From: Spongiibacter nanhainus
GTDB taxonomy: Bacteria; Pseudomonadota; Gammaproteobacteria; Pseudomonadales; Spongiibacteraceae
Reading direction: 5' to 3'
NCBI RefSeq assembly: GCF_016132545.1
Contig: NZ_CP066167.1
Coordinates: forward strand, 372,001 to 436,000
Length of the DNA stretch: 64,000 nucleotides
Shown: positions 15,884-62,748 of the stretch, in pieces
Layout of the letters: each line of letters opens with the position of its first letter
Numbering within the stretch: the first letter of the stretch is position 1
Notes under the pieces: model-generated
Seen by the model: only the letters and a program-made list of their open reading frames with translations
What the model was told of the DNA's origin: nothing
Database searches by the model: none
Made by a program: the position numbers and the translations under genes

Positions 15884-15949
15884 GTCGTGTCTCCTGTGTG
15901 TTTGACAGGCTCAGTATCCTCATCCTTGTTGAACAGGCATTGACTGCCA

Positions 15950-15967
15950 GATTAATAGAAGATTAAT
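15950..15967 (-). promoter_or_regulatory. Direct repeat, candidate OmpR-family binding site
   Basis: GATTAAT occurs at 15950-15956 and again at 15961-15967, an 11-bp period as used by OmpR/PhoB-type dimers. It lies about 70-85 bp upstream of the exported NTF2-like gene. On that strand a passable -10 (GATACT, 15918-15913) is preceded by a very poor -35, as expected of an activator-dependent promoter. Confidence 0.4.
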
Positions 15968-16142
15968 CCGCTGCGGCTCTGGTGGGACCTCTCAGGCTGT
16001 GTCCAGCTGAGCTATTTAGCCACCTCCCGCCCCTGGTGTGAGCAGTTTGGTCATGGTCCTTGCCGCCGGGTGCTTTCTATACTCGCAATCACTAATCTGG
16101 CCGACGAGCCATGGGACGACAAAAATACCGCGAGGTACGATC

Positions 16143-26099: not shown

Positions 26100-26101
26100 C
26101 C

Positions 26102-28944: not shown

Positions 28945-29064
28945 AGGGTTCCTGAATATTCGGAGGGTAAGCGAAACAGCCTTGCAATGGGCCGCCTGCA
29001 AAGTCGAGCCTGTTATTGTGGCGGGTCATTATCGCTAATTTGGGCGCCGCTTCAAGATTGACAT

Positions 29065-31340: not shown

Positions 31341-33008
31341 ATGGAATGTCGATCTGCGGTACTCACGCGCGCCACTGGATTGGTTTTTTTGTCGCTGGGG
31401 GCGTTTTTGTCCGCCTGTGCATCGAGTGGCGTAGCGGATCGAGGGGGTACCACACCCAGTGAAGAAGAATTGGTAGCGGGAATGCAAATAGTGGATTGCT
31501 TGCTTCCCGGCCAACTCAGAAAGCTCGGCAACTCCACTTACCTTACCCCTCGTCGCCCTATCAAGACGACCGCTTCTGATTGCAATATTCGCGGTGGCGA
31601 ATATGTGGCCTATGATCGGGCCAACTACAAAACGGCTCTGAGCGTTTGGTTGCCGGCAGCAGAGGCTGGCGACGCCGAAGCCCAGGTTGCAGTGGGCGAA
31701 ATTTTCGAGCGAGGCCTGGGTACAGAGCCCAATTATCAAGCGGCGGCAATTTGGTATGAGAAAGCCGCCGAGCAAAACAATCGCCGTGGCCAGTTTAATC
31801 TTGGAACCCTATACGAGCAGGGTCTGGGTGTAGAAAAGGACAAGGCGCGAGCGCTAAATCTGTATCGGCAGGCTTGGGGCTTACCCGCGGATAGTCTAAT
31901 CCTTAAAGAAGCTGCTCAGCAGCAACAGCAAGCACTGCGTGAGTCCCTGCAGAAAAAACTGGATGCTCGCGATGCCCAGTTGCGGGCTTTGGAACGTCAG
32001 ATCAAGGCTTTGAATCAAAGTTTGAATGCTGCCGAAATAGAAAAAGGCAGCGAACCGGCTAAACGTCAGCCCAAGCTGGAGATAGAGCGTGAGTCGCTAA
32101 CCGAACTGGCGAGCGCCCTGCGGCGCGATCGCAGTGAAATAAAGAAAGAACTTAGCACTATTCCCAAGCTTAGAACGCCTGCCGTTAACTCGGCAAAGGG
32201 GGACGTTGCCAGTAAACCAGACGGGAACGCTGAACTGTCTTCAAAGGACCTGAAGTTTGGGCGGTACTACGCCTTGATTATCGGCAATCGCAATTATTCT
32301 GCGTTGGAAGACCTGGAAACCCCCATCAATGACGCACGGCAGTTGGCTGACATTTTAGAGAAACAGTACGGCTTTAATGTGCAGTTATTGCTCGATGCCG
32401 ATCGCGTGACGGTAATGCAGGCCATCAATGAGCTTCATGAAATTCTGGGGGAAAACGACAATCTGCTGCTGTATTACGCCGGTCACGGCAGCCTGGTTGA
32501 GGTGGGTGAAAGAGATGCCGGCTATTGGTTGCCGGTTAATGCTGACCCGCCGCCCAATGATGCGTTTTGGGTGTCCAATGAGTTTGTGACTAATCACCTG
32601 GGAAGAATTAAGGCCAAGAGGGTGCTGGTAGTTGCGGACTCGTGTTATGGCGGTTTGTTGTCGTCATCCCCCGGCCATCTATTTTTGGGCACGGGGCGAT
32701 CAGGTGCCAGCCAAGATCCGGAGTATATCCGTTATAAACTGCCACGGCGCTCGCGTCTTCTCCTCTCCTCGGGTGGCGATAAACCCGTTATCGATACCGG
32801 GGGTGACGGACATTCGGTATTCGCCCGGGAGCTTATAGAGGCACTAAAAAGCAATAAGGCTATTTTGTCGGCGCCCGATTTATTCTTAAAAGTGAGCGAG
32901 CCTGTGAAGGCTCGTGCGGCAGCAAGCGATTTTGTGCAGGTGCCGGTGTACAAAAGTATCAAAGGTGCGGGGCATGAAGTCGGGGACTTTTTCTTCGTTC
33001 CCCAGTAG
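31341..33008 (+). CDS. Lipoprotein with Sel1 repeats, coiled coil and caspase-like domain
   Basis: A 555-residue predicted lipoprotein (signal ending LSAC, cysteine near residue 28). Residues about 95-175 carry two Sel1-like repeats (AEAGDAEAQVAVGEIFERGLGTEPNYQAAAIWYEKAAEQNNRRGQFNLGTLYEQGLGVEKDKARAL). A coiled coil of roughly 90 residues follows. The C-terminal half is a caspase-like (peptidase C14) domain with YYALIIGNRNYSALEDLETPINDARQLADIL, the catalytic histidine in LLYYAGHGS and the catalytic cysteine in VVADSCYGG. It probably faces the periplasm at the outer membrane (residue +2 is Ala). It leads the forward cluster that ends with a Ser/Thr kinase. Confidence 0.9.
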   Translation: MECRSAVLTRATGLVFLSLGAFLSACASSGVADRGGTTPSEEELVAGMQIVDCLLPGQLRKLGNSTYLTPRRPIKTTASDCNIRGGEYVAYDRANYKTALSVWLPAAEAGDAEAQVAVGEIFERGLGTEPNYQAAAIWYEKAAEQNNRRGQFNLGTLYEQGLGVEKDKARALNLYRQAWGLPADSLILKEAAQQQQQALRESLQKKLDARDAQLRALERQIKALNQSLNAAEIEKGSEPAKRQPKLEIERESLTELASALRRDRSEIKKELSTIPKLRTPAVNSAKGDVASKPDGNAELSSKDLKFGRYYALIIGNRNYSALEDLETPINDARQLADILEKQYGFNVQLLLDADRVTVMQAINELHEILGENDNLLLYYAGHGSLVEVGERDAGYWLPVNADPPPNDAFWVSNEFVTNHLGRIKAKRVLVVADSCYGGLLSSSPGHLFLGTGRSGASQDPEYIRYKLPRRSRLLLSSGGDKPVIDTGGDGHSVFARELIEALKSNKAILSAPDLFLKVSEPVKARAAASDFVQVPVYKSIKGAGHEVGDFFFVPQ

Positions 33009-33027
33009 GCGGCTCGTCGAGCGCTGT

Positions 33028-33051
33028 GCAATTAGTGTGAACAGGCCCTAG
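33028..33051. repeat. Solitary end of the 5163-5432 palindromic element
   Basis: The 24 bases match the right terminal repeat of the element at 5410-5432 with one mismatch (GCAATTAGTGTG for GCAATAAGTGTG), including the final CCCTA. No partner end is found nearby, so this is a remnant or a chance-kept promoter/terminator fragment. It lies between the caspase-like gene and the barrel gene. Confidence 0.6.
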
Positions 33052-33069
33052 TACAAAGGAGCAAGAGCG

Positions 33070-34233
33070 ATGATCGTTAACAGGCAATGGAGTTATACGG
33101 CTGGCGCGGCGGCAATAGCGTTTTTGAGTATGCTCACTGTAGCGCCGTTGGCAAGGGCTCAGGATTGTCGGTCATCAGTGGAAAGCGACCGGCAGGGTGA
33201 GTCATGTGTCTCGCCGACTTCGGACGCGGTTAATGCCGAACTGACCCATATACTGGGCGGCTTGAGTCGCAAGATTAATGGATTACGGAGGCAAAAACTG
33301 TGTTCCGCCGAGGGCGGCTTCGGCGCCTGTGGCAGTGTGCAGGGCGGCGCTGCCAGTGCTGACCAAGAGGAGGATATGCTGCTCAGTAGTGGGCGACTGT
33401 CATTGCTGGCTTTGCATGACTACAGTGCCCAAGAACGGGATCGCACGTCACTTGGGGAGGGCTTTGAGCAGTCGGCTAATGCATTGACGGTTGGGGTTGA
33501 CTACCGCTTTAGCGACGCACTATTTGCTGGAGCCACATTAAGTGCGTCCCAAAGCGACACTGATCTCGATAACAATGCCGGTGATCAGGAAAGCGACTCG
33601 CTGATTTTTGCGACTCACCTGTCACGTTATTTTAGCCGGTTTTTTATTGATGCTTTGCTCGGCTACGGCAGTGGCGATCTTGATATTAAGCGCGATGATG
33701 GGATAAGTGGCTATTCGGCGTCTACCGACAGCGACTACTGGTCAGGTGATGTCGCCTTGGGGTATGGCTACAGCAATCAACGCTGGCGAGTTACGCCAAT
33801 GATCCGGGCGCAGTTTCTTCGCGGCAGTATCGATGGCTATCGAGAGCGAAGTGAGGAGGCATCGGGCATTCTCAAAGACTTTGATGATCAGGATATTGAG
33901 TCCACCCGTTTAGAACTCTCACTTCAGGCCGACTATGTAGTTTTAACAAGTTGGGGAGTGCTTATTCCCACCTCAAAACTGGAGCTTGTGCAGGAATTTG
34001 CAGACGCGACCAGTGTAAGAGGCCGCGCCCTCAATGCCTTTGATAATTCACTGAATAGTACCTTTGACGAAACATCCGACGACCCCGATGACACCACCGG
34101 TGTTGTTGGGGTGGGTGTGTCTGCCCAGTTTCAGCGTGGCTGGTCTGCCTATGCCAATAGCGATGTACTTATTGGACATAGTTACCTGGATAAATACAGT
34201 CTTGTGGCGGGTCTACGATACGAGTGGCCGTGA
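33070..34233 (+). CDS. Outer-membrane beta-barrel (autotransporter-type barrel domain)
   Basis: A 387-residue protein with a signal peptide ending ARAQ (about residue 31). After a short Cys-containing linker the rest (from about residue 95) alternates polar and aromatic residues as in an autotransporter barrel: LSLLALHDYSAQERDR, ALTVGVDYRFSDALFAGATLSASQS, SRYFSRFFIDALLGYGSG, SDYWSGDVALGYGYSNQRWRVTPMIRAQF, and a last strand SLVAGLRYEWP. A large passenger is lacking, so it is a barrel-only protein. Its stop overlaps the next gene (GTGA). It is part of the forward cluster with the caspase-like lipoprotein. Confidence 0.82.
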   Translation: MIVNRQWSYTAGAAAIAFLSMLTVAPLARAQDCRSSVESDRQGESCVSPTSDAVNAELTHILGGLSRKINGLRRQKLCSAEGGFGACGSVQGGAASADQEEDMLLSSGRLSLLALHDYSAQERDRTSLGEGFEQSANALTVGVDYRFSDALFAGATLSASQSDTDLDNNAGDQESDSLIFATHLSRYFSRFFIDALLGYGSGDLDIKRDDGISGYSASTDSDYWSGDVALGYGYSNQRWRVTPMIRAQFLRGSIDGYRERSEEASGILKDFDDQDIESTRLELSLQADYVVLTSWGVLIPTSKLELVQEFADATSVRGRALNAFDNSLNSTFDETSDDPDDTTGVVGVGVSAQFQRGWSAYANSDVLIGHSYLDKYSLVAGLRYEWP

Positions 34234-35039
34234 TCGTTAGGTCGCTGGCCTGGTGCTTTCTCCTGGTATTGGTTGGCTGTGCCAGCCCGACAACAAAGCT
34301 GGATCGTCGCGCACAGACATTGGGGTTTTCCATAGCGGTAGTAAAAGGGGATGGCTTCCTCCACCGTGCCTATATGTCGGGAGATATCGACAGCGCCAAG
34401 CGCGTACATGTCTACCTGGATGGTGATGGTCGTCCATGGCTGTGGCATAGGCAGGTTGCCGAAGATCCCACTCCATCCAGCACGCTGGTGCTGGAGTTGA
34501 TGAGCCAAGACAGTACGGCATCGATTTATCTGGGGCGCCCCTGTTATTTTGTGCTGGAACGCTGCGATGATCGCCTTTGGACAACGGCCCGTTACTCTCC
34601 CCAAGTGGTAAAAAGTATGACTGCTGCCGTACAGCAGCTATTGCGCTATAACGAACAGGCATCAATAAGTCTCGTGGGATACAGTGGGGGTGGCGCGCTG
34701 GCGACATTGATGGTGGCCGACTTGCCCGCCGTGGATGAAGTCGTCACAGTGGCCGCCAATCTCGATATTGACTATTGGGTAGCATTACACGGCTATGCGC
34801 CCCTGGATGACTCTTTTAACCCCATAGAGTCGGCAGACTTGGCAGGCGTTCGACACTGGCATTGGGTGGGGGGCAGAGACGAAGAAGTCAGGCCGGAGAT
34901 GGCGCGCCGATTTGTGGAGCGCCATGGTGGTACGCTGCGTGAGATTAACGATTTTGATCACCGCTGCTGCTGGGCCGATCAGTGGGCGGAGCTGTTGGCC
35001 GTTTCTCTAGGCGCGGTGTCAGGGCCGTCTGCAAGATAG
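34230..35039 (+). CDS. Lipoprotein alpha/beta hydrolase
   Basis: A 269-residue predicted lipoprotein: short signal MIVRSLAWCFLLVLVGC with lipobox LVGC. The body has an alpha/beta hydrolase pattern with VHVYLDGDGRPWLW near the oxyanion region, the nucleophile elbow VGYSGGGALA and a late acid/histidine pair (VGGRDEEVRPE and NDFDHRCCWADQW). Homologues occur in marine gammaproteobacteria as hypothetical lipoproteins. I take GTG 34230, which overlaps the stop of the barrel gene as GTGA; GTG 34224 is the other option. The substrate is unknown. Confidence 0.75.
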   Translation: MIVRSLAWCFLLVLVGCASPTTKLDRRAQTLGFSIAVVKGDGFLHRAYMSGDIDSAKRVHVYLDGDGRPWLWHRQVAEDPTPSSTLVLELMSQDSTASIYLGRPCYFVLERCDDRLWTTARYSPQVVKSMTAAVQQLLRYNEQASISLVGYSGGGALATLMVADLPAVDEVVTVAANLDIDYWVALHGYAPLDDSFNPIESADLAGVRHWHWVGGRDEEVRPEMARRFVERHGGTLREINDFDHRCCWADQWAELLAVSLGAVSGPSAR

Positions 35040-35049
35040 GAGGTAGACT

Positions 35050-36450
35050 GTGGCCGACAAGGAGCCGGCGGACAAGCAAGACCAGGAACAGGCGCACAAC
35101 GCCGACGCCACCCGAATGATCTCGGAGGATGATCAGGGCCAGACACGGCCCATTAATGCAGACAATGCCACTCAGTCGTCCCCCGGCAATCAGGCTGGCG
35201 TTTTTCATTTGCGCCCCGGCGATGTCTTAAAAGAGCGCTTTAGGCTGGAGCAAAAGCTTGGCGAAGGCGGGATGGGAGCCGTCTACCTCGCCATTGATCA
35301 GCGCAAAGTCGAAGCCAGACACGACAAGCCTCAGGTGGCTATCAAACTGATCAGCGGTGGTTTTGCTAGAGACTCCAGGGCATTTATTGCCCTGCAGCGC
35401 GAGACAGATAAATCCCAGACTCTGGCCCACCCCAATATCATCACGGTGTACGATTTCGACCGCGACGGCGATGTCTTCTTTATGACCATGGAGGCATTGA
35501 GTGGCAGTACCCTGGACAAGGTGATCGGCAACTCGGGTTATACCTTCCCGGAGCGTTTGCGCTTTGTCGAGCGCCTCGCTGAAGGCATCGCTTACGCCCA
35601 CCAGCGGCACATCGTCCATTCCGATATTAAACCCGCCAATATTTTTGTCACTGATGATGGTGAGCTCAAGGTTCTCGATTTTGGTATTGCACGGGCACTG
35701 GCCGATGTGGATGGCAAATCGGTAGACCGGCTTGGGGAGGTGGCGGGGCTTACGCCGGCCTATGCCAGCTGTGACATGCTGGAGCGCCGCGAGCCCCACG
35801 CGGCGGATGATGTGTATGCCATCGGATTGATTGCCTATGAATTGTTATCTGGCGAGCACCCCTTTGCCAGAAAAAAAGCGACCGAGGCCCGGGCGGCGGG
35901 AATGCGCCCCAAAAAGATTAAGGGCCTAGCGAACTACCAGTGGCGGGCGATCGCCAAGGCCCTGGAGTTTGAACGCGCTAAACGCTGGCAAGATGCGGGG
36001 CAGTTTTTACGACACTATCGAGGTGCCGGGCGCCGGGTGCGGCAGCTGTCCGTGGCGCTGTTATTGGCTGTGGTGGCCTTTGGCGCCTACCTGTTGTTGT
36101 ATCAGCCTGAGGCCGGGCCGGATATTCCCTTTGCTGAGTTAGAGCCGGCCAAACAGCAGAACGTTCGTCAGGCCCTGAATGAGGCCAGGCAGGCGAAGTC
36201 CTTCGGTGATGTGAACGGTGCGCTGTTCTATCTGGATAAGGCCTACGCTTTTCATCCCCGCAATCGCGAGGTGATGGCAGAGTTGGAAACGGTCATCGAA
36301 CCGATGCTGAATGAGATGGAGGGGGTACAATCTGGGCAGCAGGCAGCCGAATACCTCAATCAAGTGGAGCAGTTATTGCGGTATGAGTCACTGGCCCAGA
36401 ACCCCGACCTGGTAAAAATGCAGCGGCAGCTACAGGCACTGACTCACTAG
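35050..36450 (+). CDS. Membrane-bound Ser/Thr protein kinase
   Basis: A 466-residue Hanks-type kinase. After an acidic N-terminal tail the catalytic domain (about residues 60-330) has the P-loop LGEGGMGAVYLA, the lysine in VAIKLI, the catalytic loop HSDIKPANIFV and DFGIARAL, followed by a single membrane helix (LSVALLLAVVAFGAYLLLY) and a C-terminal helical periplasmic domain. The usual HRD is HSD, so this is a non-RD kinase and may not need activation-loop phosphorylation. AGGAGGT precedes the GTG start. It ends 28 bases before the convergent FHA gene, and likely works with the FHA proteins and the PP2C phosphatase of that cluster. Confidence 0.93.
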   Translation: MADKEPADKQDQEQAHNADATRMISEDDQGQTRPINADNATQSSPGNQAGVFHLRPGDVLKERFRLEQKLGEGGMGAVYLAIDQRKVEARHDKPQVAIKLISGGFARDSRAFIALQRETDKSQTLAHPNIITVYDFDRDGDVFFMTMEALSGSTLDKVIGNSGYTFPERLRFVERLAEGIAYAHQRHIVHSDIKPANIFVTDDGELKVLDFGIARALADVDGKSVDRLGEVAGLTPAYASCDMLERREPHAADDVYAIGLIAYELLSGEHPFARKKATEARAAGMRPKKIKGLANYQWRAIAKALEFERAKRWQDAGQFLRHYRGAGRRVRQLSVALLLAVVAFGAYLLLYQPEAGPDIPFAELEPAKQQNVRQALNEARQAKSFGDVNGALFYLDKAYAFHPRNREVMAELETVIEPMLNEMEGVQSGQQAAEYLNQVEQLLRYESLAQNPDLVKMQRQLQALTH

Positions 36451-36478
36451 CTTGGATTTGTTGGCGATCACACTGCCC

Positions 36479-37420
36479 TCAGCGTTTAATCAGCGCTATT
36501 AGCCTCGCCCATAATCCCGGTTTTTGAGGGGGATTCGGTGTAGGTGGTGACTCGGCTTGTGGCGCATTGGCGGGCAATTCAAACGCCAGCTCAAGGCTGC
36601 CGATGCTAATGATATCCCCCTGTTTCAAGTAGTTAGACAGGGCACGCTGACCGTTGACAAAGGTGCCGTTGGTGGACATCCAGTTGACGATTTTCCAGCG
36701 ATTCCCGTCATTGATGATCTGTGCGTGCATGCCGGAGATACTGCTGTCATCGAAGGCAATATCCACGGCGGAAGCATCGCGACCGATTTTCCATAAAGGC
36801 CGCCCCTTGTCGTCGCGCGGGCTGTTATCCGGATTGAGTTCGATGATATTGCCCTCGATACTCGAATTGAGCCCCAGTAATCGCGGCCATGACCCGATGG
36901 GCGCTGCGGCAATGCGCCCGGCCCGGTATTTGCTGGCAGCATCGTCGTCACTGTCTTCGCTGAAAAACTCGGTGCCGGAGGCTTTTTCCAGTCCTGCTTG
37001 TTCCGACCACATTGCTGGAATATCGGCCTGTGGTTTGGGTGCCGTACCGCTCGGTGGTGCCGGGTTTATCTGGGTGGCACTATCGCCAACCAGTTGAGTG
37101 GCATCCTCGTCTAACTCCTCGCTGTGCTTGGCATCTTCATCAAAAATCTTAAAAACAAAGTCGCCCAACATAAGCTGATCGCCATCGCCTAGTGTCACCT
37201 CGCTTGTTACTGCAGTGCCGTTTACAAAAGAGCCGTTGCTGGAACCCAAGTCTTTATAGCGTAAATTCTGACCATCGTAGTCGAAGCTGCCGTGCAGTCG
37301 AGATACGCTGGAGCTGAGCACGCGGATTGTACAGTCTGCACCTCGGCCTATATGGGTTTCGCCGGGCTCTAAGCGGTACTCGATACCGTTGCTCTCATCA
37401 AACAATATGAGCGCTGTCAT
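36479..37420 (-). CDS. Protein with two FHA domains
   Basis: A 313-residue cytoplasmic protein. The first FHA domain (about 1-95) has THIGRGADCTIRVLSSSVSRLHGSFDYDGQNLRYKDLGSSNGSFVNG; the second (about 195-290) has KIGRDASAVDIAFDDSSISGMHAQIINDGNRWKIVNWMSTNGTFVNG (both cited by GR, S-x-x-H and NG-FVNG). FHA domains bind phosphothreonine, so it is a plausible reader of the kinase encoded convergently. The 100-residue linker is acidic and Thr/Ser-rich and could itself be a substrate. It is the last gene of the nine-gene reverse cluster. Confidence 0.93.
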   Translation of the reverse strand: MTALILFDESNGIEYRLEPGETHIGRGADCTIRVLSSSVSRLHGSFDYDGQNLRYKDLGSSNGSFVNGTAVTSEVTLGDGDQLMLGDFVFKIFDEDAKHSEELDEDATQLVGDSATQINPAPPSGTAPKPQADIPAMWSEQAGLEKASGTEFFSEDSDDDAASKYRAGRIAAAPIGSWPRLLGLNSSIEGNIIELNPDNSPRDDKGRPLWKIGRDASAVDIAFDDSSISGMHAQIINDGNRWKIVNWMSTNGTFVNGQRALSNYLKQGDIISIGSLELAFELPANAPQAESPPTPNPPQKPGLWARLIALIKR

Positions 37421-37458
37421 GCGTATTCCTCTCCCTTAGCGTGCCGTGCTGTTTGCCT

Positions 37459-38259
37459 TTAAGGTTTAAAGTAATCGTGTCTGCCGTCCTGGTTGGCGAT
37501 GGAAACTGCCGGAGGAAGGGCGATGTCTCCTCGACAGGGTGCATCGTCGTCTGCTCGCGCGATAACCACAGTGATATTGTCTTTGCCGCCATTGGTCAAG
37601 GCTCGTTCTATCAGCGTGTCCACCAATGCGGTCAGTGCTGCGCTGTCCCTGGCCGGTGTGGCGTCAGCAATGATGGTGGCGATCTCAGGGCCACTAACGG
37701 CGTCGATCAGGCCGTCGCTACACAGCACCAGCATTTCATCGCGGAATATTCTGGTATTCAATAATGGTACGTTGGCAGCCTTGAGTTCGCTTAAGCCCAG
37801 GGCGCGGCTGATCAGGTTGCGCTCGGGGTGAGTCGCGGCTTCACTCATGGTGATATCTCCCTTGGCTAGCAGCGCTTCGACCTTGGAGTGATCCCGGCTG
37901 AGCTGATGGAGTTCCCCGTTCCAAAGGTAGGCACGGCTGTCACCAATCCAGGCCAGGTCGAAGTCGTAATCGTGAAAGTCCGCCACGACTATCGTGGTGC
38001 CCATCCCCTTCTTGCCACGGCCATCGGCCGCGGCCTTAATGATTTCCTGGTTGGCGTCGACAATGGCGTCGATAAGGGGTTCGCCCATATCGACCTTGTC
38101 GGTGATTACGGTGGTAGCGATGTCTGCCGCAACTTCTCCGGCCGCCGGCCCCCCCATGCCGTCGGCGACGATGGCGAGCCCCCAGTGGCTGTCAGCGACA
38201 AAACGGTCTTCATTCCCGCTGCGTCGGCCAATATGGCTTTTGCCGGTGATGGTGACCAT
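37459..38259 (-). CDS. PP2C-type Ser/Thr phosphatase
   Basis: A 266-residue phosphatase of the Stp1/PrpC type that reverses Hanks-kinase phosphorylation using two metal ions. Motifs: RRSGNEDRF, IVADGMGGPAAGEVAA, WIGDSRAYLW, ALGLSE, LVLCSDGLIDAV and GGKDNITVVIA. AGGAG lies before ATG 38259 (MVTITGK); the GTG at 38265 is too close to that site. It follows the small multiheme cytochrome with almost no gap, so it is part of the same transcript as the electron-transfer genes. Confidence 0.94.
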   Translation of the reverse strand: MVTITGKSHIGRRSGNEDRFVADSHWGLAIVADGMGGPAAGEVAADIATTVITDKVDMGEPLIDAIVDANQEIIKAAADGRGKKGMGTTIVVADFHDYDFDLAWIGDSRAYLWNGELHQLSRDHSKVEALLAKGDITMSEAATHPERNLISRALGLSELKAANVPLLNTRIFRDEMLVLCSDGLIDAVSGPEIATIIADATPARDSAALTALVDTLIERALTNGGKDNITVVIARADDDAPCRGDIALPPAVSIANQDGRHDYFKP

Positions 38260-38261
38260 AT

Positions 38262-39533
38262 TCACTCCTTTGGTTTGGTATCCATAAGTCGCCGGGCCTC
38301 TTGGCGAATGCGTGCGGCACTGTAGTTGTCTTCGTTGTCCAGTAATGAAAACAGGCCTTGATAAGTTTGTGTCTGGTCGAGTTCTTCGGCCAGTAACTGC
38401 AAACCGAGAAATAACTGCTCCGCATCGGCGTAGTCGCGGAAGTCACCCCGGGCGGCAGCGGCCAATAGCGAGCCCTGTAAGCGGCCTTTTTCCTGACGGC
38501 TATAGGGGTTCGCCGACAGCGTCTGCTCCAGGCGATTGAGGGTGCTTTCTAGAGTCTGACAGGACTGGCGTAGTTCCTTAAAGCCCTTCCCAGCAGCTTG
38601 ATGCAGGGACGCTATTTGGGCTTCCAGTGTGTTAGCCAGCTTGCCATCTCGAACGCTTATAGCGCTTTCCAATAAGCGCAGGTCGGCGTCCTGAATGCGC
38701 AGGCTGCCGGGTGCCAGTGCAATACCGGCAGCGGGGTCGTCGCTGCTTTGCATGGGGCGGTGGCAGGAGTGGCAGTCAAACACCGCGAGCTCGGGGAGCA
38801 GTGACTCAGTCTGGCTGTGGTGGTTAAGTATGTTCAGGTACTGCTTCGCCGTTACCAGCTTGCCCTTTAACCAGCGGTCTATGGCGTCTACCTCGCCTTT
38901 GCGCTCACGGTAATCGGCATCGACCACGTGGTGATAGGGCATCAGAGTCAGCCAGGTGTCCAGTTCAAAACGCAGGCGGGGGTGACCGGCTGCCATCATT
39001 TGGTGGGTGGCCAGCTGATTGTTGCTGCCCAAATGGCAGTTGGCGCAGATCTGTGCCGCCACCATTGGGTCTTCGGTTTTATTCAGGCCGCGGCGCAGAT
39101 TGGCGCTGTGGCTGGCCTGTTCGCCGTAGTGATTATCCAGCCAGTGCTCGGCGCCGCCGTGGCAGGCTTCGCAGCCGACCCCGTCCTCCAAATAGAATCG
39201 CTCGCCACGTTTCTCAGTGGCTTGGTAGTCGCTGTGGCACCTCAGGCACTCCGGTGCCTGGCTGGCATCGGGTATGCCCATTTTGCGGGCTATCGTTTGG
39301 GACTGGGCGCTCTTCAATGTTTGATAGGCCCGGGCATGGCGGTCGTACTTGGCCCAAATACGATACTCGTTTTGCGCCACAATCGAATCGTCTTTTTCAC
39401 CGGCGCGACCATGGCAGACACTGGATGCACAGGTGGCGACGCCGACATGGATTGCGTCGTCGCCAGCAAACGCGGCGCTGCTCAGTATCAATAGTGCCGA
39501 AACTGCGCGCAAAATCGCTTTGCAGATGCTCAT
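38262..39533 (-). CDS. Exported multiheme cytochrome c (five heme motifs)
   Basis: A 423-residue protein with a signal peptide (ICKAILRAVSALLILSSAAFAG). It has four CXXCH motifs (CLRCH, CEACH, CANCH, CHSCH) and one CX4CH (CASSVCH) at the N-terminus, the latter in the HVGVATCASSVCHG context known from cytochrome c554-like proteins. The C-terminal 180 residues are helical and heme-free. The ATG 39533 is chosen; a longer frame reaches 39587 into the upstream gene, whose stop (39530) overlaps by four bases. It is periplasmic and presumably passes electrons within the cluster. Confidence 0.9.
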   Translation of the reverse strand: MSICKAILRAVSALLILSSAAFAGDDAIHVGVATCASSVCHGRAGEKDDSIVAQNEYRIWAKYDRHARAYQTLKSAQSQTIARKMGIPDASQAPECLRCHSDYQATEKRGERFYLEDGVGCEACHGGAEHWLDNHYGEQASHSANLRRGLNKTEDPMVAAQICANCHLGSNNQLATHQMMAAGHPRLRFELDTWLTLMPYHHVVDADYRERKGEVDAIDRWLKGKLVTAKQYLNILNHHSQTESLLPELAVFDCHSCHRPMQSSDDPAAGIALAPGSLRIQDADLRLLESAISVRDGKLANTLEAQIASLHQAAGKGFKELRQSCQTLESTLNRLEQTLSANPYSRQEKGRLQGSLLAAAARGDFRDYADAEQLFLGLQLLAEELDQTQTYQGLFSLLDNEDNYSAARIRQEARRLMDTKPKE

Positions 39534-43378: not shown

Positions 43379-43391
43379 GCTGCAGACCTTG

Positions 43392-45221: not shown

Positions 45222-47199
45222 CGCTGTCGAGAAAGGGAGATTGTGGGCAGTTGATGTAGCGCAGGCGTTGGCCACCGGGTGTCAGGGTGTCGGCGCGGAT
45301 AGCCTGTGGGGCATTGTTAACCGTGCCCAGTAGCTCGCCGGCGTTGTGTACCCCCAGAAAGGCGATCATGTCGTCCTGGTCGACGCCATCACCCGAGACC
45401 CCAATACCGCCCACCAGCTGGTTGCCCCGGTAAATCGGTACGCTACCGGGGAAAATTTGTATGCCGTTGGCAACCCGGGGGGCGGCGTTGCTACTCGTGC
45501 CGCCAAAGGGGACGCCAACACAGTTTTTGGCCACATCCGTGGCGTTCACCCCCAACAAGTAGAGCAAGTGGCTGACCAGCGCATTCATGCTGAGGTCCAA
45601 TTGCAGCCCGGTGGAAAAGGGGCTCCATTCCCCGGCGGGTTTACTCAGCGGTCCGGGGCCACTGGCGTCCCGACCATCGGGAAAAAACGGCCGGGACAGA
45701 TTGCCGCCAGAGCGGTCGGCAAAGGCGATGCCGTTGCGCAGGGCGTTGGCGTCGCCGGTGAGCTGAATAACACTGTTGACGTAGTCGGCCAGTACCACCT
45801 GACTACTGGGCATTAGCGAGGCGGTCAGGTATTGGGTATTGGGCTGATTGTCGATGAAGTCGGCGGCATCGGTAGAGGAAAACAACACCGCAGTGCGGGC
45901 TTTTTGCAGCGACACATCGGCGCCAAATACCGGTGCATCCCGGGTGCGAGCGATGCCCAAAATGCTGCCGTCGGTATCCACAACGCTGATGGTGACCCGG
46001 GCCTGGGAACCCAGCGGGCGCCTTATCTGGGCCCGGGCGCGGTTGGCGATGGCCAGGGCCTGGTCGAGAAGGGTTTGCACCTCGCTGGCGCTTAGGGCGC
46101 TGCCGGCCTGGGGCGGAAAACGCAACTGATCGTTCTGATCGACAAACACAAAGGCATCCCGCCCTGGAAAATGCTGGCCCGCATCCGGGCGAATCCCAGA
46201 CCCGGGCTGACCAAAGGCCTGGCCGCTGCGGAAGCCGTCGGCGGCATTGTAGTAGTCAGTGACGCTGAGCAGGTTGCCATCGACCCCAAGCATCAGGGCC
46301 GGCGGATTCTGTGCGCTGGGGCTGATGGCGTTGTAGCGGGCATCGCTGTAGCGCAGGGTTTTGCCGTCAATGGTAATGCGGTCTGCCTGACGCTGAGCCG
46401 GTGGCGCAAAACCAAAACTGCCGGCCAGTGCGATCAGTTCATCGCTGTCGCGATCCGTGTCGGTGATCGTGCGATCCAGGCCGTAGACGAAGTCATCGGC
46501 AATGACGCCAATGCCGCCGACTGGCGTACCGTTTTTATAAAGAGGGAAGCCGCCGGGATCAGCGGATAGGCCTAGTGGCGAGCGCTTGGGGCCGATCTCC
46601 AGCAATGGATTGCTGGCGTCCAGCATAAAGTCGGAGCAGGGTAGTTGGCTAAACTGCACGCCGAACAGCGGGCCGGATGGCTGGTTGCGCTCGCCGGGGT
46701 TAAAGTGATCCTGCACGATCTGACCGGCGACCCGGGTACTGAAGGCGTTGCCCTCACTGGAGAGGTAGGCGCCGGTTATGGCTTTGGCGATGGCGGCCAG
46801 AGCGTCCGAGCCCAGAGTGGCGGTCACTGGTAATTGCAGTTGTTCCAGGCCGCCAGTGATAGGGCCATTGGCAGCCTGAGAATCGATGGTGACCACGCGG
46901 TCGCCGTTGGCCAGCACATTGGCCATGCGAAATACTGCCAGCACATTCCCCACGCGGTCGACAACCGCTATGGTCGCTGAGGTGTTGAGTGCCTGCGCCT
47001 GAGCAACGGCTTGGCTCACCACCTGCTCCACCTCGCTGCTGCTGAGAAAGCTGTTGGCGTCGGCGCAGCTGCCGCTGCAGTTGGTATTGGCATTGCTGCC
47101 CCGGGCGGCCGTAAAACGGTCGCTGCTGCCTCCGCCGCAGGCAACCAGCAATAGCGCGTGGGCGATGACCATTAACACTGCTGCCCTGCGCCGCCTCAT
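45193..47199 (-). CDS. Lipoprotein with two GlcG/HbpS-type domains
   Basis: A 668-residue lipoprotein (lipobox LLVAC, followed by Gly-rich residues). It has two copies of a GlcG/HbpS-like domain: the first near residues 50-350 (VEQVVSQAVAQAQALNTSATIAVVDRVGNVLAVFRMAN ... GGIGVIADDFVYG) and the second near residues 380-640 (VQTLLDQALAIANRARA ... ARVTISVVDTDGSILGIARTRDAP ... GGIGVSGDGVDQDDMIA), each cited by its VVD-x-x-G-x-x-L core. HbpS binds heme and senses redox stress, so a heme-related or redox role would fit the operon. Start ATG 47199 overlaps the FHA-cytochrome stop as ATGA. Confidence 0.85.
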   Translation of the reverse strand: MRRRRAAVLMVIAHALLLVACGGGSSDRFTAARGSNANTNCSGSCADANSFLSSSEVEQVVSQAVAQAQALNTSATIAVVDRVGNVLAVFRMANVLANGDRVVTIDSQAANGPITGGLEQLQLPVTATLGSDALAAIAKAITGAYLSSEGNAFSTRVAGQIVQDHFNPGERNQPSGPLFGVQFSQLPCSDFMLDASNPLLEIGPKRSPLGLSADPGGFPLYKNGTPVGGIGVIADDFVYGLDRTITDTDRDSDELIALAGSFGFAPPAQRQADRITIDGKTLRYSDARYNAISPSAQNPPALMLGVDGNLLSVTDYYNAADGFRSGQAFGQPGSGIRPDAGQHFPGRDAFVFVDQNDQLRFPPQAGSALSASEVQTLLDQALAIANRARAQIRRPLGSQARVTISVVDTDGSILGIARTRDAPVFGADVSLQKARTAVLFSSTDAADFIDNQPNTQYLTASLMPSSQVVLADYVNSVIQLTGDANALRNGIAFADRSGGNLSRPFFPDGRDASGPGPLSKPAGEWSPFSTGLQLDLSMNALVSHLLYLLGVNATDVAKNCVGVPFGGTSSNAAPRVANGIQIFPGSVPIYRGNQLVGGIGVSGDGVDQDDMIAFLGVHNAGELLGTVNNAPQAIRADTLTPGGQRLRYINCPQSPFLDSDEQDACAGK

Positions 47200-48950
47200 G
47201 GTGCGCCCTCCCCCGGCGTCAGTGGAGGGTGGGATTGCGGCAGGCCGCTTGCCATCGCCGGCATACCATCGCGGTGAAAGGCGTGACAGTCCACGCACTG
47301 CAGACTGCGCTGACTGTGTTGCTCGCTGCCGTGGCAACTGACGCAGGTATCAAGCTTGGGCATAAGGATATCGCTGGCGTGTTCCGATGTGTCGGCCTGG
47401 TGGCATGACAGACAGGCTCCATCGGTGCCCTCCGGGCCCAACACGTGGGGGCGGTGGTCGAAGCGTGAACTGATAAACCAGTCTTGCACCAATCGCACCG
47501 GTTTCACCTGCCAGCGCCTTGGCGTCTGCCCGTCGACTTTGGACACCTGGTGGCAGTTGATGCAGCCGGTTTTGTTAAACAACTGTTCCGCCTCCCAGTC
47601 GGCCAGGCGTTGACCACACTCCAAGGTGTTTAAACCCTCGCAGCGCTGTTTCATCTCCCAGTTGGGGACCCAGCGCTCGGCGGGTTCTGAATCGCTGTTG
47701 CGCATCTTTACGGCGGCGCTTATGAAAAATTCTTCCAGGTAGTAGTAGAGCTCATCGCCATCGGTATGGGGCAGCTCCCGACGCGGTTGCTGATCGTTAA
47801 AGTCCAGGCTGTGGCAGCGTTGGCAGCTGGACTCCATGGTGATCGGCTGAAAATGTTCGCCGTCGGGAGCCAGGGTGTGGCAATCGGCGCATTGTAAATT
47901 ACGCTCGCCGCCGCCTGCGCCGCTAACCTTGATTTCGTTTCCCGCCAAATGCAGCTGGTGTGAAAATTTGAGGTTGGAGTGTTCCCGGGTTTCGGGCCGA
48001 TCCAGGCTTTTTGCTACTCGCTGCCATACAAGCTCATCGCCGCCTTGTTGCAGTTGCAGCAGGGCCACTTTAAAACCTGGGTGAGTTTTTTCGCTGAAGG
48101 CGGTGGCAGCGGCGATGGTGTCAGATTGGCCGATATTGCCGGCGGAGCGCTGCAGCGATTGGGCGTGGCAGTTGATGCACAGGGCGTTGTCACTGACGAT
48201 CAGCATCGACGGCTCGTTGTGTTCCTTGTGGCAATTTGTGCACTGCTCGGCGTTGTCAGTTACGCCCGGGTGTGGAGCAATGAAGTGAGCAGTGGTGTGT
48301 TGGTGGCAGGCACTGCACTCGGCGTTGCCGACCTGCTTGAAGGGCGTGCTGTGGCAGCTCTGACAGTTGTCCGCCACACCAGGCACATGGTGTGGGTCCG
48401 ACAGGGGGCCGGATAACCACAAGTGATCGCTGGGAGTCGGCAAGGATTGTGTTTTGGCAGCAAACTCCGGCTGGAAATAGCCCGCCAGTGGAATTGCCAG
48501 TCCCGCCACAATGATCAGCAGGGCGCTGATATAACTCAGTGCCCGGCCAGAGGGAAGCTTTAAACGCAGTGCCTCGGCATAGCGGTGGCGGATGTCGGGT
48601 TTGGCATCGTCGTCTACACGCAACTCCAAAGCGGCGTCAAAACCCGGTGGTACCTCGATTAGTTCGATGCGGTGGGGACCCAGGCGCACGGAATCGCCGG
48701 GCTCCAACTCTATATTGTCTAGCCGGCCCGCGTCCGTCTCCAGAGCATGCTCGCCCAGCGCCCTCAGTGTTATATGGCCAGAGGGCTCGAGCTGCAATGT
48801 AGCGTGCCGGGGGGCAACATCGTCGCCGAATAGCTGCAGATCGCTGTGACTGTCGCTACCCAGCGTCAGGGTGTCGCTGTGAAATTCACTGTCGCGCTGG
48901 TCGAGGATCGCACCGTTTTTAAGCCGGGTTTTTCTAATCAGTATCGCCAT
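47196..48950 (-). CDS. FHA domain - membrane helix - decaheme cytochrome fusion
   Basis: A 584-residue protein with three parts. Residues 1-105 form an FHA domain (LTLGSDSHSDLQLFGDDVAPRHATLQLE), without a signal peptide, so in the cytoplasm. Residues 138-158 are a single membrane helix (LSYISALLIIVAGLAIPLAGY). Residues from about 196 hold ten CXXCH motifs: CQSCH, CSACH, CTNCH, CINCH, CADCH, CQRCH, CINCH, CLSCH, CVSCH, CVDCH, all necessarily periplasmic since heme is attached there. The protein thus joins phosphothreonine reading inside to electron transfer outside. The FHA domain keeps the R-H of the ligand site but departs from the consensus after it. I know no named family of this layout. 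Confidence 0.9.
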   Translation of the reverse strand: MAILIRKTRLKNGAILDQRDSEFHSDTLTLGSDSHSDLQLFGDDVAPRHATLQLEPSGHITLRALGEHALETDAGRLDNIELEPGDSVRLGPHRIELIEVPPGFDAALELRVDDDAKPDIRHRYAEALRLKLPSGRALSYISALLIIVAGLAIPLAGYFQPEFAAKTQSLPTPSDHLWLSGPLSDPHHVPGVADNCQSCHSTPFKQVGNAECSACHQHTTAHFIAPHPGVTDNAEQCTNCHKEHNEPSMLIVSDNALCINCHAQSLQRSAGNIGQSDTIAAATAFSEKTHPGFKVALLQLQQGGDELVWQRVAKSLDRPETREHSNLKFSHQLHLAGNEIKVSGAGGGERNLQCADCHTLAPDGEHFQPITMESSCQRCHSLDFNDQQPRRELPHTDGDELYYYLEEFFISAAVKMRNSDSEPAERWVPNWEMKQRCEGLNTLECGQRLADWEAEQLFNKTGCINCHQVSKVDGQTPRRWQVKPVRLVQDWFISSRFDHRPHVLGPEGTDGACLSCHQADTSEHASDILMPKLDTCVSCHGSEQHSQRSLQCVDCHAFHRDGMPAMASGLPQSHPPLTPGEGAP

Positions 48951-48954
48951 GCGC

Positions 48955-49833
48955 TCACCAGTAGAAAAACACGGTAAAGATATGTACCAGCAGTGCTGCT
49001 AACAGTGCCACTGTGGCGGGAATGTGAATGCTTAGCCAGAGTTTGAGGCGCAATTGCAGACTGATCTCGCGGCGTAGACGGCACAGCAACTCGCGACGGC
49101 GGACCACGATAGCCAGCAGTTGCTGCAGGCGTTGGGCTTCGCCCGCTTTACTGCTGCGGGTGAGGCTATCGGCGATATAATTGGCAACGGCATCTTGATT
49201 GCGGTTATCCGACATGCGCTCGCCCCGGTCTGTGGGTAGCAAAACGGTGGATCTGTCCCGCTGGAGCAACTGATCCCAAAAGCCCCCGCCCAGGGCGCTG
49301 CGCTCAATGCAACTGGTGATTACGGCGTCGACACCCGGGTCGCACTGGGCGCCCAGTGCAAGTGCTTTCTCATCGGCGGCGGCGAGATCGGCAAGCCGCT
49401 CATCGAAAGATTGATTGGCGCGGTTTTCGACCATTGCGCGGGGGTGGCGCAGGTAAGCATATAGGCCGTAAAAACCGCTGAGTACCACCAGGCACATCAG
49501 TGCCCAAGCCAGGGTATGTACGTTGACACCAAACTGAAAGGCGCCGTGCAGTGTTGCGATCAGTGGTACCACGATGCCCAAATAAATGTGCGCCGACGTC
49601 CAGCCCTGTAGCGAGCCCAAGTTGCTTTGGTAGCGGCGTTTACGAATGCCCAGCCAGCTTAGCCATAGAATCATCGTCAGTGCGATGCTACCCAATACAT
49701 AGCCCTGCCAGCTGCCACCATTGGGCGGAAGCGTGGGGCGCTGGCTGAGGTAAAGCAAAACAGAAACCAGTAGCAGCCCCAGCGCCAGCCAGAGATAACG
49801 CTTGCCGCGATAATTGAGGACGTTGCTATACAT
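48955..49833 (-). CDS. Membrane cytochrome b-like protein
   Basis: A 292-residue protein with about five membrane helices: WLALGLLLVSVLLYLS, YVLGSIALTMILWLSWLGI, HIYLGIVVPLIATLHGAF, TLAWALMCLVVLSGFYGLYAYL, and at the C-terminus IHIPATVALLAALLVHIFTVFFYW. Histidines occur in the right places in helices (SAHIYLG, ATLHGA, SIHIPA, LVHIFT), as in diheme cytochrome b. A 100-residue cytoplasmic insert lies before the last helix. It probably takes electrons from the adjacent flavo-iron-sulfur protein and hands them to periplasmic hemes, a quinone-linked step being likely. Gaps to neighbours are 4 and 12 bases. Confidence 0.75.
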   Translation of the reverse strand: MYSNVLNYRGKRYLWLALGLLLVSVLLYLSQRPTLPPNGGSWQGYVLGSIALTMILWLSWLGIRKRRYQSNLGSLQGWTSAHIYLGIVVPLIATLHGAFQFGVNVHTLAWALMCLVVLSGFYGLYAYLRHPRAMVENRANQSFDERLADLAAADEKALALGAQCDPGVDAVITSCIERSALGGGFWDQLLQRDRSTVLLPTDRGERMSDNRNQDAVANYIADSLTRSSKAGEAQRLQQLLAIVVRRRELLCRLRREISLQLRLKLWLSIHIPATVALLAALLVHIFTVFFYW

Positions 49834-49845
49834 GCGCCATGGCCC

Positions 49846-52452
49846 TCAGTCGTGTCCCAGCAATTCGACAAATTGCGGCGGTGCAATGCGTTGTGCCGCG
49901 CCGGTCGGGCAGGATTGCACGCAGGCCGGACCACTGGTTCGCCCGGCACAGGCATCGCACTTGACCGCTTTTTTCATCGCGTCGCCATCGCTTGCCTTTG
50001 CACCACTGCCATCGTCACCGGGCCCAGGGCCCCGGCCAGTGAATAACCAGGACAACAAGCTCGGCTTCGGATCAGCTGGATAACTCATCTTGATGACGTC
50101 GTAGGGGCAGTTAGTCTCGCAGTTACCGCAGCCGATGCAGCTGTCGTCGATCGTCACCTCGCCGCTGTTCTGGCGGTGTATGGCGTTGGGCGGACACTCC
50201 TTCATGCAATGCGGTTGCTCACAGTGACGGCAAGCGATAGGAAGGTTGATATTGGCGAAGCGGGCGCCAGATTTGCGATTCAGGCGGGACAGGCCACCGT
50301 GGGTTTCGGCGCAGGCGATCTCGCAGTTGTCGCAGCCAATACAGAGATTCTCGTCGATGACCAGAACATTGGTTGCCTCCCCGGCGCCGCGGTCCAGCAA
50401 AAACGAGATCACTGAGGCGTTTTCCGGCATGGCGGCCAGGTCGTGGGTTGCGCGAAGCTGGCTGGCGGTGAGGGCTTGTAGCCGGGTAACCGCGCTGGGA
50501 GATTTTTGCAACAGCGCGAGAAATGTCGCCTGGTGAATCTCGATTAGCTCGGTGCGCGCCGCGGCGACGGCAGATTCATGGCGCAGGCGATCTCCCATCA
50601 GTGCCATCTGTCCGACGATCTGCCCGGAGTGATACTGCCCCACCGCAAGCTGCCTACCATTACTGCTACGGGTGAGGGCGACCGTGCCACTGCGAATCAG
50701 GAACAATCGGTCATCGTGCTCGCCCTCGCGGTAGATGGTGTCGCCGCGGTTGTAGTTAGAGTTTTTGACCGACATCGCGATTTCCCGAAGCTCGCTGTAG
50801 CTGACTTCAGGAGCAAAGCACTGTTGCAGGGCTCGCTGCACAAATACCGCTTCGATGCCTTCGCTGACCTCCGCATTGCTGGCCATCAATTTAAGCATGG
50901 TGCGGCGGGGCGTCTCGATCAGCACCGTATCGGGGTCGAGACTGGCGTGGCCGCTTCGCGGCCGTCCGGAAAGCAGGCTAAGCTCACCAAAAAATTGTCC
51001 GGGGCCGAGGGTGGTGCTTGGGCCGTCCTCGCTAGTGAGGGTAACGCTGCCCTCCACAATGGTATAAAAGCTGTTGCTGTAGTCGCCGTCCCGATACAGG
51101 GCATCGCCATCGCGCCGGAGTTGGGTGACGACCGGCGGGCTCAAGGGGGGGAGCTCCTGGGACGCCTGTCCAGCATCCCGGCGTTGTTGTTGTAGCCTCT
51201 CCCGCGCTGCCTCGATGTCGGCAATACGCTGGGCGCGCAATGTGTCGGCTTCCCGCTCTAGGGCCTGATAGTCCGACACATCGCCGACGCCATAAATAAT
51301 CTCGCTTTCCATAATCAGCTCGCGAAAGGCCAGAGCGTTAAGGCGGGCAAACATGGGAATGCGCTGCTGGTAAAGGGTGAGAATATCATCGACGTCGGCA
51401 CTGTAAGGCAGCAGAGCAAATTTCAGTGCCAGCAGAGGATGATCAACCGGTTTGACATCCTCGCCATGGATAAAATGGATGACGTCCCGCCCCTGATTCA
51501 TGTCCTGCTTGATCAGCGGGTAGCCCGCCAGCGCACCAACGACATACAGCCCGGGAATATTGGACTGATACTGGCGGTCCAGCTCGGGGAGGGCGTCGGG
51601 CTTATCGTTGGGTAATTGGATCTTGCAAGTGTCGAGAAAGCCGCGCGGCGGAATCGAGCCGAGCCGGGCAATTACCCGATCACAGCAGAGGGTCTCATCA
51701 CCGTGGGGCGTGCTCAGGGTGATACTGCCTCGCTGGCCATCGCGGGGCAGAGACAGGGTTTTCACTTCCGACTCATAGCGGCATGAAAATGCGATACGAC
51801 GATCGTTGATTGCCGCCAGGACCGCGTCGAGGTTACCGGGTTTGGCCCGGGAGAATTCCTTTTTGCGGTTAACGATGGTGACCCGGTTGTACTGGGCCAG
51901 GGCGAGTGCATTCTCAATGGCGGCATCGCCAGCCCCAACAACGACGATATCCTCGTCGCGAAATGCCTCCGGGTCGTCTAGCTGGTACTGGACAAAGTCC
52001 GAGTTGTCACCGTCGACCCCGAGGCGGCGGGGGTTGCCCTGGGTGCCTATAGCCAACACAACAAAATCTGCAGAAATTGTGCTGCCATCACCACAGCTAA
52101 GTTGAAAATCGCCCTGCTCGCCACTAATGCTGGTGACTTCTGTGTTGTAACGGATATTGATACCGATATCGTCGATGCCCTTGGCCCAGGTTTCCAGCAC
52201 CGACTCGCGTTTGCCCGCCGCAAATTGCAGAGGGCTGCGCAGATCCAGATAGCCCGGCTCGTCCATGACGTGCTTGCCTTTCTGGTAGCGCTGGATGGTG
52301 TTGGCGTGGGCGGGGGACGCCTCGAGAAGGATGTGCCCGGGTTTCACTGACGTAGCTGTAGCGTCGGCGCGCTCTTTAAGCGCTGCCTCGGCAGCCGCGC
52401 TCAGCCCCGCTGGGCCAGCGCCAATGATGGCAATACGATAGTGCTCCTTCAC
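49846..52452 (-). CDS. FAD/NAD oxidoreductase fused to two cNMP domains and a polyferredoxin
   Basis: An 868-residue cytoplasmic protein. Residues 1-330 form a thioredoxin-reductase-like fold with FAD loop IIGAGPAGLSAA, a second loop VVVGAGDAAIENA and IPGLYVVGALAGYPLI; no redox-active CXXC is seen. Two cyclic-nucleotide-binding domains follow (GPGQFFGELSLLSGRPRSGHASL; GQIVGQMALMGDRLRHESAVA). The last 180 residues have four cysteine clusters for 4Fe-4S centres (CIGCDNCEIAC, CRHCEQPHCMKECP, CIGCGNCETNCP, CDACAGRTSGPACVQSCP). The start is GTG 52452 with GGGAG upstream. It leads the reverse operon and is the likely electron input, gated by a nucleotide signal. Confidence 0.92.
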   Translation of the reverse strand: MKEHYRIAIIGAGPAGLSAAAEAALKERADATATSVKPGHILLEASPAHANTIQRYQKGKHVMDEPGYLDLRSPLQFAAGKRESVLETWAKGIDDIGINIRYNTEVTSISGEQGDFQLSCGDGSTISADFVVLAIGTQGNPRRLGVDGDNSDFVQYQLDDPEAFRDEDIVVVGAGDAAIENALALAQYNRVTIVNRKKEFSRAKPGNLDAVLAAINDRRIAFSCRYESEVKTLSLPRDGQRGSITLSTPHGDETLCCDRVIARLGSIPPRGFLDTCKIQLPNDKPDALPELDRQYQSNIPGLYVVGALAGYPLIKQDMNQGRDVIHFIHGEDVKPVDHPLLALKFALLPYSADVDDILTLYQQRIPMFARLNALAFRELIMESEIIYGVGDVSDYQALEREADTLRAQRIADIEAARERLQQQRRDAGQASQELPPLSPPVVTQLRRDGDALYRDGDYSNSFYTIVEGSVTLTSEDGPSTTLGPGQFFGELSLLSGRPRSGHASLDPDTVLIETPRRTMLKLMASNAEVSEGIEAVFVQRALQQCFAPEVSYSELREIAMSVKNSNYNRGDTIYREGEHDDRLFLIRSGTVALTRSSNGRQLAVGQYHSGQIVGQMALMGDRLRHESAVAAARTELIEIHQATFLALLQKSPSAVTRLQALTASQLRATHDLAAMPENASVISFLLDRGAGEATNVLVIDENLCIGCDNCEIACAETHGGLSRLNRKSGARFANINLPIACRHCEQPHCMKECPPNAIHRQNSGEVTIDDSCIGCGNCETNCPYDVIKMSYPADPKPSLLSWLFTGRGPGPGDDGSGAKASDGDAMKKAVKCDACAGRTSGPACVQSCPTGAAQRIAPPQFVELLGHD

Positions 52453-62746: not shown

Positions 62747-62748
62747 GC

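Follow-up and report, generated by a model that had tools for sequence, protein, structure and literature searches.

The stretch of DNA analysed here (the window) is 64,000 nucleotides of Spongiibacter nanhainus, whose 4.08 Mb genome, G000, is a single contig. Nine tightly packed reverse open reading frames, P0001 to P0009, occupy positions 36479 to 52452 and face, in convergent orientation, a forward cluster at 31341 to 36450. The genes, with the basis for their assignment in brackets, are as follows.

49846..52452, reverse: P0001, flavo-ferredoxin with two cyclic-nucleotide-binding (CNB) domains, 868 aa (Pfam, 82-row alignment, hydropathy)
48955..49833, reverse: P0002, putative diheme cytochrome b, b561-like, 292 aa, the hemes being deduced from invariant His (alignment, PF01292, model)
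47196..48950, reverse: P0003, inner-membrane anchored decaheme cytochrome with an N-terminal cytoplasmic FHA domain, degenerate here, 584 aa (Pfam, CXXCH motifs, transmembrane segment)
45193..47199, reverse: P0004, lipoprotein with repeated GlcG/HbpS domains (PF03928, 86 bits, 3 stretches; LVAC lipobox)
43392..45221, reverse: P0005, predicted outer-membrane beta-barrel, 18 strands, AlgE fold; long N-terminal extension, low model confidence
39530..43411, reverse: P0006, decaheme-LVIVD protein (beta-propeller-like), 1293 aa, the most conserved member (10 CXXCH; LVIVD 72.9 bits)
38262..39533, reverse: P0007, pentaheme cytochrome, CX4CH plus 4 CXXCH, c554-like (Pfam, alignment)
37459..38265, reverse: P0008, PP2C-type phosphatase, clade-specific member (PF13672, 52.7 bits; Stp1, 193.8 bits)
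36479..37420, reverse: P0009, double-FHA protein with canonical phospho-Thr residues, clade-specific (PF00498, 124 bits, 2 stretches)
35050..36450, forward: P0010, transmembrane Ser/Thr kinase of a separable kinase cluster (PF00069, 135.7 bits; transmembrane segment 333-351)
34224..35039, forward: alpha/beta-hydrolase-like protein of the kinase cluster (weak Lipase_3/FSH1 matches; present in the cluster of congeners too)
33070..34233, forward: autotransporter-type barrel of the kinase cluster (PF03797, 141.5 bits)
31341..33008, forward: caspase-domain (C14) protein with Sel1 repeats, kinase cluster (PF00656, 87.1 bits)

The initial annotation had described a nine-gene reverse operon with tiny gaps or overlaps, on which a forward cluster ending in a Ser/Thr kinase converges. 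Both are present, and no gap in the operon exceeds 38 nt. With likely ATG starts chosen for the GlcG (47199), barrel (45221) and pentaheme (39533) genes, the distances from P0001 to P0009 are 12, 4, −4, −29, −20, −4, −4 and 38 nt, which fits a single transcript for the nine genes. (The ATG of P0004, whose product has an LVAC lipobox, overlaps the P0003 stop by 4 nt.) The domain calls also hold. Pfam finds two cNMP domains, a Pyr_redox flavin domain and 4Fe-4S domains in P0001, FHA and cytochrome c7/c3 in P0003, an HbpS-like domain in P0004, LVIVD in P0006, cytochrome c554 in P0007, PP2C in P0008, two FHA domains in P0009 and Pkinase in P0010, while P0002 and P0005, which have no Pfam match at E≤0.01, are assigned through their homologues. 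CXXCH motifs number 10 in P0003, 10 in P0006 and 4 in P0007; the corresponding means for residue-shuffled sequences are 0.05, 0.014 and 0.014.

Other features lie on both sides. Four reverse genes at 57551-63885 match JetD, an AAA_29/SbcC-type ATPase, DUF4194 and DUF3375 and look like a Wadjet (JetABCD) defence set, in which the three other than JetD are presumably JetA-C. A DNA methyltransferase gene of the N6_Mtase/Eco57I type (53740-56727) is between this set and the cytochrome operon. The reverse cluster at 24719-29760 encodes DUF3348, OmpA and DUF2894 proteins and one of 696 aa whose Apolipoprotein match is below cut-off. Next to it, 1.6 kb from the kinase cluster, is the gene of a CRP/FNR-type regulator (29065-29760) that has a cNMP domain.

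The spread of the operon was followed with two of its proteins. The FHA-decaheme, searched against 390 genomes of the order, gave 31 at E≤0.001 including the window's own, and neighbourhoods were read for 24 of these (23 regions and the window), 7 weak ones being left out. The LVIVD alignment, searched against 84,980 species genomes, gave at least 594 matching stretches and at least 584 confirmed relatives. The best 80 loci were kept, and these span Halieaceae, Cellvibrionaceae, Alcanivoracaceae, Steroidobacteraceae, Woeseiaceae, Lysobacterales, Betaproteobacteria, Alphaproteobacteria and one Vicinamibacteria MAG. (A phylum sample of 398 genomes had 19 matches at E≤0.001: 11 long ones, among them that of the window, and 8 that are short or partial.) The best 80 of the at least 584 relatives, with 17 others, make up 97 LVIVD rows, 56 of which have enough flank on both sides. 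Among these 56 fully covered loci, a set biased to close relatives because one of two proteins (LVIVD or FHA-decaheme) was used to find each member and the 80 are the closest, a P0001 homologue is present in 55, the cytochrome b in 55, the FHA-decaheme in 55, GlcG in 54, the barrel in 56 and the pentaheme in 49 (it is absent from 7), with LVIVD in all 56 by construction of the search. This seven-gene core, P0001 to P0007, is found in gamma-, beta- and alphaproteobacteria among the best 80 and the 17 other rows. It is real, widely conserved and apparently undescribed: open-licence PMC text yielded no description of the operon, and the remark of the initial annotation that no named system has this make-up stands for that body of text.

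Most loci share one gene order in the core; many betaproteobacterial ones have the P0001 gene after the pentaheme gene. On the one Sphingobium megaplasmid examined, the core is in two convergent groups, pentaheme/GlcG/barrel/LVIVD and flavo-ferredoxin/cytochrome b/FHA-decaheme, and the FHA-decaheme gene is followed by a gene annotated cpdA that Pfam places with calcineurin-like phosphoesterases. Among plasmid records, 13 matched the LVIVD protein (12 from Sphingobium and 1 from Sphingopyxis) and 12 matched the P0001 protein. The pentaheme gene of the megaplasmid is directly preceded (L161:533-8736) by genes for a ShlB/FhaC-type transporter and a 2138 aa product that has no Pfam match; no TpsB-like match is near the other loci. 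[MAG records L120, L131 and L147, titled Klebsiella pneumoniae and Bordetella parapertussis, also carry the operon. They group with environmental MAGs on the LVIVD tree, and their organism names are probably wrong.]

The protein at which electrons would enter, P0001, has no transmembrane segment by hydropathy. Its flavin part is a thioredoxin-reductase/FNR-type FAD/NAD(P)H module, and four [4Fe-4S] clusters accompany the two CNB domains. All 16 ferredoxin cysteines are 100% conserved in the 82-row alignment (conservation percentages here and below exclude gaps). The FAD and NAD(P) glycine motifs are conserved, as is a basic motif that follows Rossmann strand 2, and the reductase part has no conserved CXXC pair in the same alignment; the combination fits a ferredoxin-NAD(P) reductase-like role. 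The CNB domains (PF00027, 128.9 bits, 2 stretches) are placed between the flavin and ferredoxin modules. The phosphate-binding cassette of CNB domains has Glu and Arg as its key residues. These ligand residues are kept in CNB1 (E490 97%, R499 98%, 82 rows), and in CNB2 Arg is at 98% and Glu at 66% of the same rows, the window copy having Gln for Glu. The domains may bind another ligand instead of a cyclic nucleotide.

A distant sister system in G298 (L069:12514-19926) consists of an FAD/NAD/2Fe-2S reductase, a c554-like tetraheme, a CNB-ferredoxin, a 269 aa membrane protein whose family membership is unassigned, and a decaheme with a Cys-rich N-terminus in place of FHA. The membrane protein gene sits between those for the CNB-ferredoxin and the decaheme. 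That this relative keeps the CNB-ferredoxin, with the reductase encoded apart in a gene upstream, points to the ferredoxin as the partner of the CNB domain.

A source of cyclic nucleotide is encoded near the core in a few cases. Class III cyclase genes are beside it or within three genes of it in six of the 97 rows (L150, L121 and G305, the last two with CHASE2, and L114/L133/L138); the cyclase was Pfam-checked in L150, G305, L121 and L114, and a seventh locus, L097, gives a weak match. Because the rows are so few, and a class III cyclase is present somewhere in 65 of 65 genomes checked, this neighbourhood may be due to chance. The L114 cyclase (15084-15974), encoded between pentaheme and PP2C, carries a fused FHA domain, which brings cyclic-nucleotide and FHA signalling together in one protein.

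P0002 has five histidines, H82, H96, H106, H270 and H284, each 100% conserved in 76 rows. Two pairs of them, H82/H96 and H270/H284, are in helices of the predicted structure (pLDDT 91) and would suit two hemes. PF01292 matches 44 of 44 family members at E≤1 (best 2.9e-7), with the window's member scoring 11 bits against a cut-off of 30.1. PDB fold matches are no better than the helical-bundle background; it is the homologues that make P0002 a putative cytochrome b561-like protein. Next in line would be P0003, with 10 CXXCH, a single transmembrane segment (137-155) and an FHA match of 26.4 bits. Against TIGR03508, the MtrA/DmsE family, it scores 27.8 bits, below the cut-off of 192.2 (P0007 scores 19.8 bits).

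On the envelope side, P0006 and P0007 have N-terminal hydrophobic segments by hydropathy. The fifth heme motif of P0007, CX4CH, is at residue 53; in a 79-row alignment its Cys and its His are both 100% conserved. P0006 is 61-73% identical to 16 homologues. P0005 is predicted to be an 18-strand barrel of AlgE fold, AlgE/Occ-type barrels being the top fold matches of its model, and a barrel of this predicted fold is more likely to be a channel or scaffold than a wire sheath like MtrB. Like the core, MtrCAB/Pcc systems combine decaheme cytochromes with an outer-membrane barrel; they differ in the predicted barrel type, in that P0003 falls outside the DmsE/MtrA family, and probably in the source of electrons. 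In Mtr conduits entry is from quinol, whereas in the core it would be from NAD(P)H. An MtrB-type outer-membrane conduit finds no support, since P0005 is predicted to be AlgE-like, and given that fold no claim is made here that electrons leave the cell. The electron path from cytoplasm to outer membrane, as first proposed, is thus plausible for the seven-gene core as far as the envelope, and is weakened by the predicted barrel type beyond that.

The same wire could carry electrons inward, from extracellular donors such as Fe(II) or a cathode. This is improbable. The cytoplasmic end would be a NAD(P)H-flavin-ferredoxin chain, to which inward transfer from such donors would be uphill without a coupling device, and the modelled barrel is AlgE-like, not of MtrB type. 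On the other side, locus L079 is from a MAG titled 'Biocath', and the available part of a Gallionellaceae pangenome study (PMC10734462, Table 1) places under 'Other' a cluster 403, 'Forkhead-associated protein', that has 10 hemes and occurs in 27 of the 87 iron oxidisers, with no operon or function given there. By name it resembles P0003, forkhead-associated with 10 heme motifs.

Nearest in components, together with the Mtr/Pcc conduits, is extHIJKLMNOPQS of Geobacter sulfurreducens, which, as the core does, joins a porin, several multiheme cytochromes and a cytochrome b (PMC5877670, from the portion of the text available). P0006 has local similarity to ExtM, ExtN and ExtO, its best NCBIfam matches, and in Geobacter deficiency of ExtI affects selenite/tellurite conversion (same portion of PMC5877670). 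By analogy, the AlgE/Occ-like barrel might admit an oxyanion or other small substrate that the LVIVD decaheme would reduce in the periplasm. This would be a special case of the reading preferred below, and is rather unlikely. The ExtM score of P0006 (equivalog NF040943) is 63.3 bits, far under the cut-off of 800, and local. P0001 to P0010 have no rhodanese or Rieske match; the consulted portion of the ext paper has both in ext, together with a selenocysteine cytochrome, and names for it no flavo-ferredoxin, CNB, FHA, GlcG or LVIVD component. The inner-membrane part of ext is, according to the same portion, homologous to bc-complex cores rather than to a NAD(P)H-flavo-ferredoxin.

The signalling genes behave differently from the core. 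In the initial annotation they were its partners, and one reading has the kinase, PP2C and FHA proteins, the FHA of the cytochrome included, reading and controlling the electron route by phospho-Thr. That these genes would always be near the cytochromes is contradicted by the 56 fully covered loci, where PP2C is found in 29, double-FHA in 29, and kinase and caspase in 8 each. Over all 97 rows, 42 loci have PP2C and/or double-FHA genes just downstream, 40 of the 82 scorable ones do not, and 15 are undeterminable; on a quick-method tree of the 97 LVIVD rows, four changes explain the pattern. A single clade of 38 rows (support 98) has 37 of the 42, the contig of its remaining row, L089, being too short. 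The other five are G264, L114, L133, L138 and L141. PP2C and double-FHA are mainly one clade's addition, and the window is in that clade.

The key residues of both added proteins are conserved. P0008 has D20, D35, D109, D184 and D229 at 100% in 41 rows, and scores 193.8 bits against the Stp1 model (cut-off 230). A phospho-Thr-binding FHA motif has Arg, Ser, His and Asn-Gly. The first FHA domain of P0009 keeps the canonical residues (R26, S40, H43 and N62, 100% of 36 rows), and the second has R214 at 71%, S229 at 100%, H232 at 97% and N251 at 100%. All three FHA domains of the window's genome, one of its two kinases and one of its two PP2C genes are in this locus. The kept double-FHA residues, this clustering and the 37 of 38 rows favour phospho-Thr control of the route. 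The FHA domain of the cytochrome itself argues the other way. The window copy of P0003 has Ser32, Ala46 and Asp73-Ala74 where Arg, Ser and Asn-Gly are expected, with His49 kept, and in the 80-row alignment Arg is at 53%, Ser at 7% and His at 69%; judged by these residues, it lacks a conserved phospho-Thr motif and is degenerate in the window. Arg is missing in 33 of 37 loci with PP2C/double-FHA and kept in 25 of 25 without (62 loci scored both ways). Because there are three independent pairs only, two opposite and one with no difference (sign test p 0.5), this is a pattern, not proof. Some decahemes, by alignment, have no FHA domain and a short N-terminus before the transmembrane segment: L125 and L139 (Duganella), L121 (Limnobacter) and L095 (a gammaproteobacterial MAG). 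On their sequences these are natural domain-loss variants; the decaheme of L105 is cut by a contig end.

The kinase cluster is separable from the core. P0010 has, by eye in translation, the catalytic Lys, HxDxKxxN and DFG, and its score against the PASTA kinase equivalog is 188.7 bits (cut-off 450). Compared with PknB/Stp1/FHA sets, the locus likewise has a kinase, a PP2C and a double-FHA protein, with key residues conserved in P0008 and P0009; it differs in the sub-cut-off scores of P0010 and P0008 and in that its kinase is in a caspase/autotransporter cluster that is found without cytochromes. In G001, G010 and G015, of the same genus, the double-FHA/caspase/autotransporter/hydrolase/kinase cluster stands alone and FHA-decaheme was not found. 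G005 has both cluster and core, at 2.49 Mb and 0.06 Mb of one 3.5 Mb contig and so more than 1 Mb apart, and G004 has them on different contigs. [A PP2C 48% identical to the window's lies convergent beside the kinase in G001 (L155/L156), where it is possibly a remnant.] A scan of fetched flanks (roughly 8-20 kb each side) with one profile from eight kinases found a kinase at 13 of 57 scorable loci and none at 44. Genomes, with or without the core, have kinases (20 of 20 checked) and FHA domains (19 of 20).

Proximity does recur. FHA-decaheme is present at 200 bits or more in 19 genomes, and 14 of these also have the caspase at 140 bits or more. By hand count the two are within 20 kb in six of the 14 (G000, G059, G116, G288, G323 and G380), and were the chance 2% in each genome, the binomial probability of this would be 2e-7, with shared ancestry ignored; two of the other eight, G066 and G149, have contigs too short to judge. 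The six are from five families. A functional link between kinase cluster and core is plausible, but it is not obligatory. The proposed joining of phosphorylation genes to the core therefore survives in part, in the recurrent proximity and the kept double-FHA residues, and is undercut by genus-mates with the cluster far from the core or without it. Control by phosphorylation and cyclic nucleotides, also proposed, similarly keeps its second half, with CNB domains in the electron-entry protein, and loses much of its first through the patchy signalling genes and the degenerate cytochrome FHA. Phospho-Thr control as the purpose of the whole locus is on balance unlikely, somewhat more so than the oxyanion reading, and less so than electron uptake.

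The best explanation, with a probability of roughly 0.55, is that the seven-gene core would be a NAD(P)H-driven, nucleotide-gated electron-export system to which PP2C and double-FHA were added in one clade. NAD(P)H would be oxidised by the flavin module of P0001. The four [4Fe-4S] clusters of the same protein would hand the electrons to P0002, the diheme cytochrome b, which would take them over the inner membrane to P0003, the anchored decaheme. The pentaheme P0007 would then pass them to the decaheme-LVIVD protein P0006, which, presumably acting in the envelope together with P0004 (GlcG lipoprotein) and P0005 (AlgE-fold barrel), would reduce an extracytoplasmic acceptor; the gene set includes no recognised terminal reductase. 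Cyclic nucleotide on the CNB domains would gate entry of electrons. In the clade with the window, PP2C, double-FHA and a near or distant Ser/Thr kinase might tune the system or share its signal.

A broader proposal is made tentatively, and is appreciably less secure than export itself. The core may represent an unnamed class of transmembrane electron-export enzyme in Proteobacteria, whose multiheme complex in the envelope would receive electrons from NAD(P)H by way of CNB-flavo-ferredoxin and diheme cytochrome b, with cyclic nucleotide as the direct gate, phospho-signalling having come later in one clade. The phosphorylation genes, as an optional and clade-specific layer, correct the first reading of the locus. 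A decaheme protein of 1,250 residues that stays about 57-73% identical across classes means that the core probably does something specific, not named in the papers found. If the gating is true, an electron-transfer protein would contain a second-messenger switch, and the core genes would be a handle on the use that these bacteria make of outward electron transfer.
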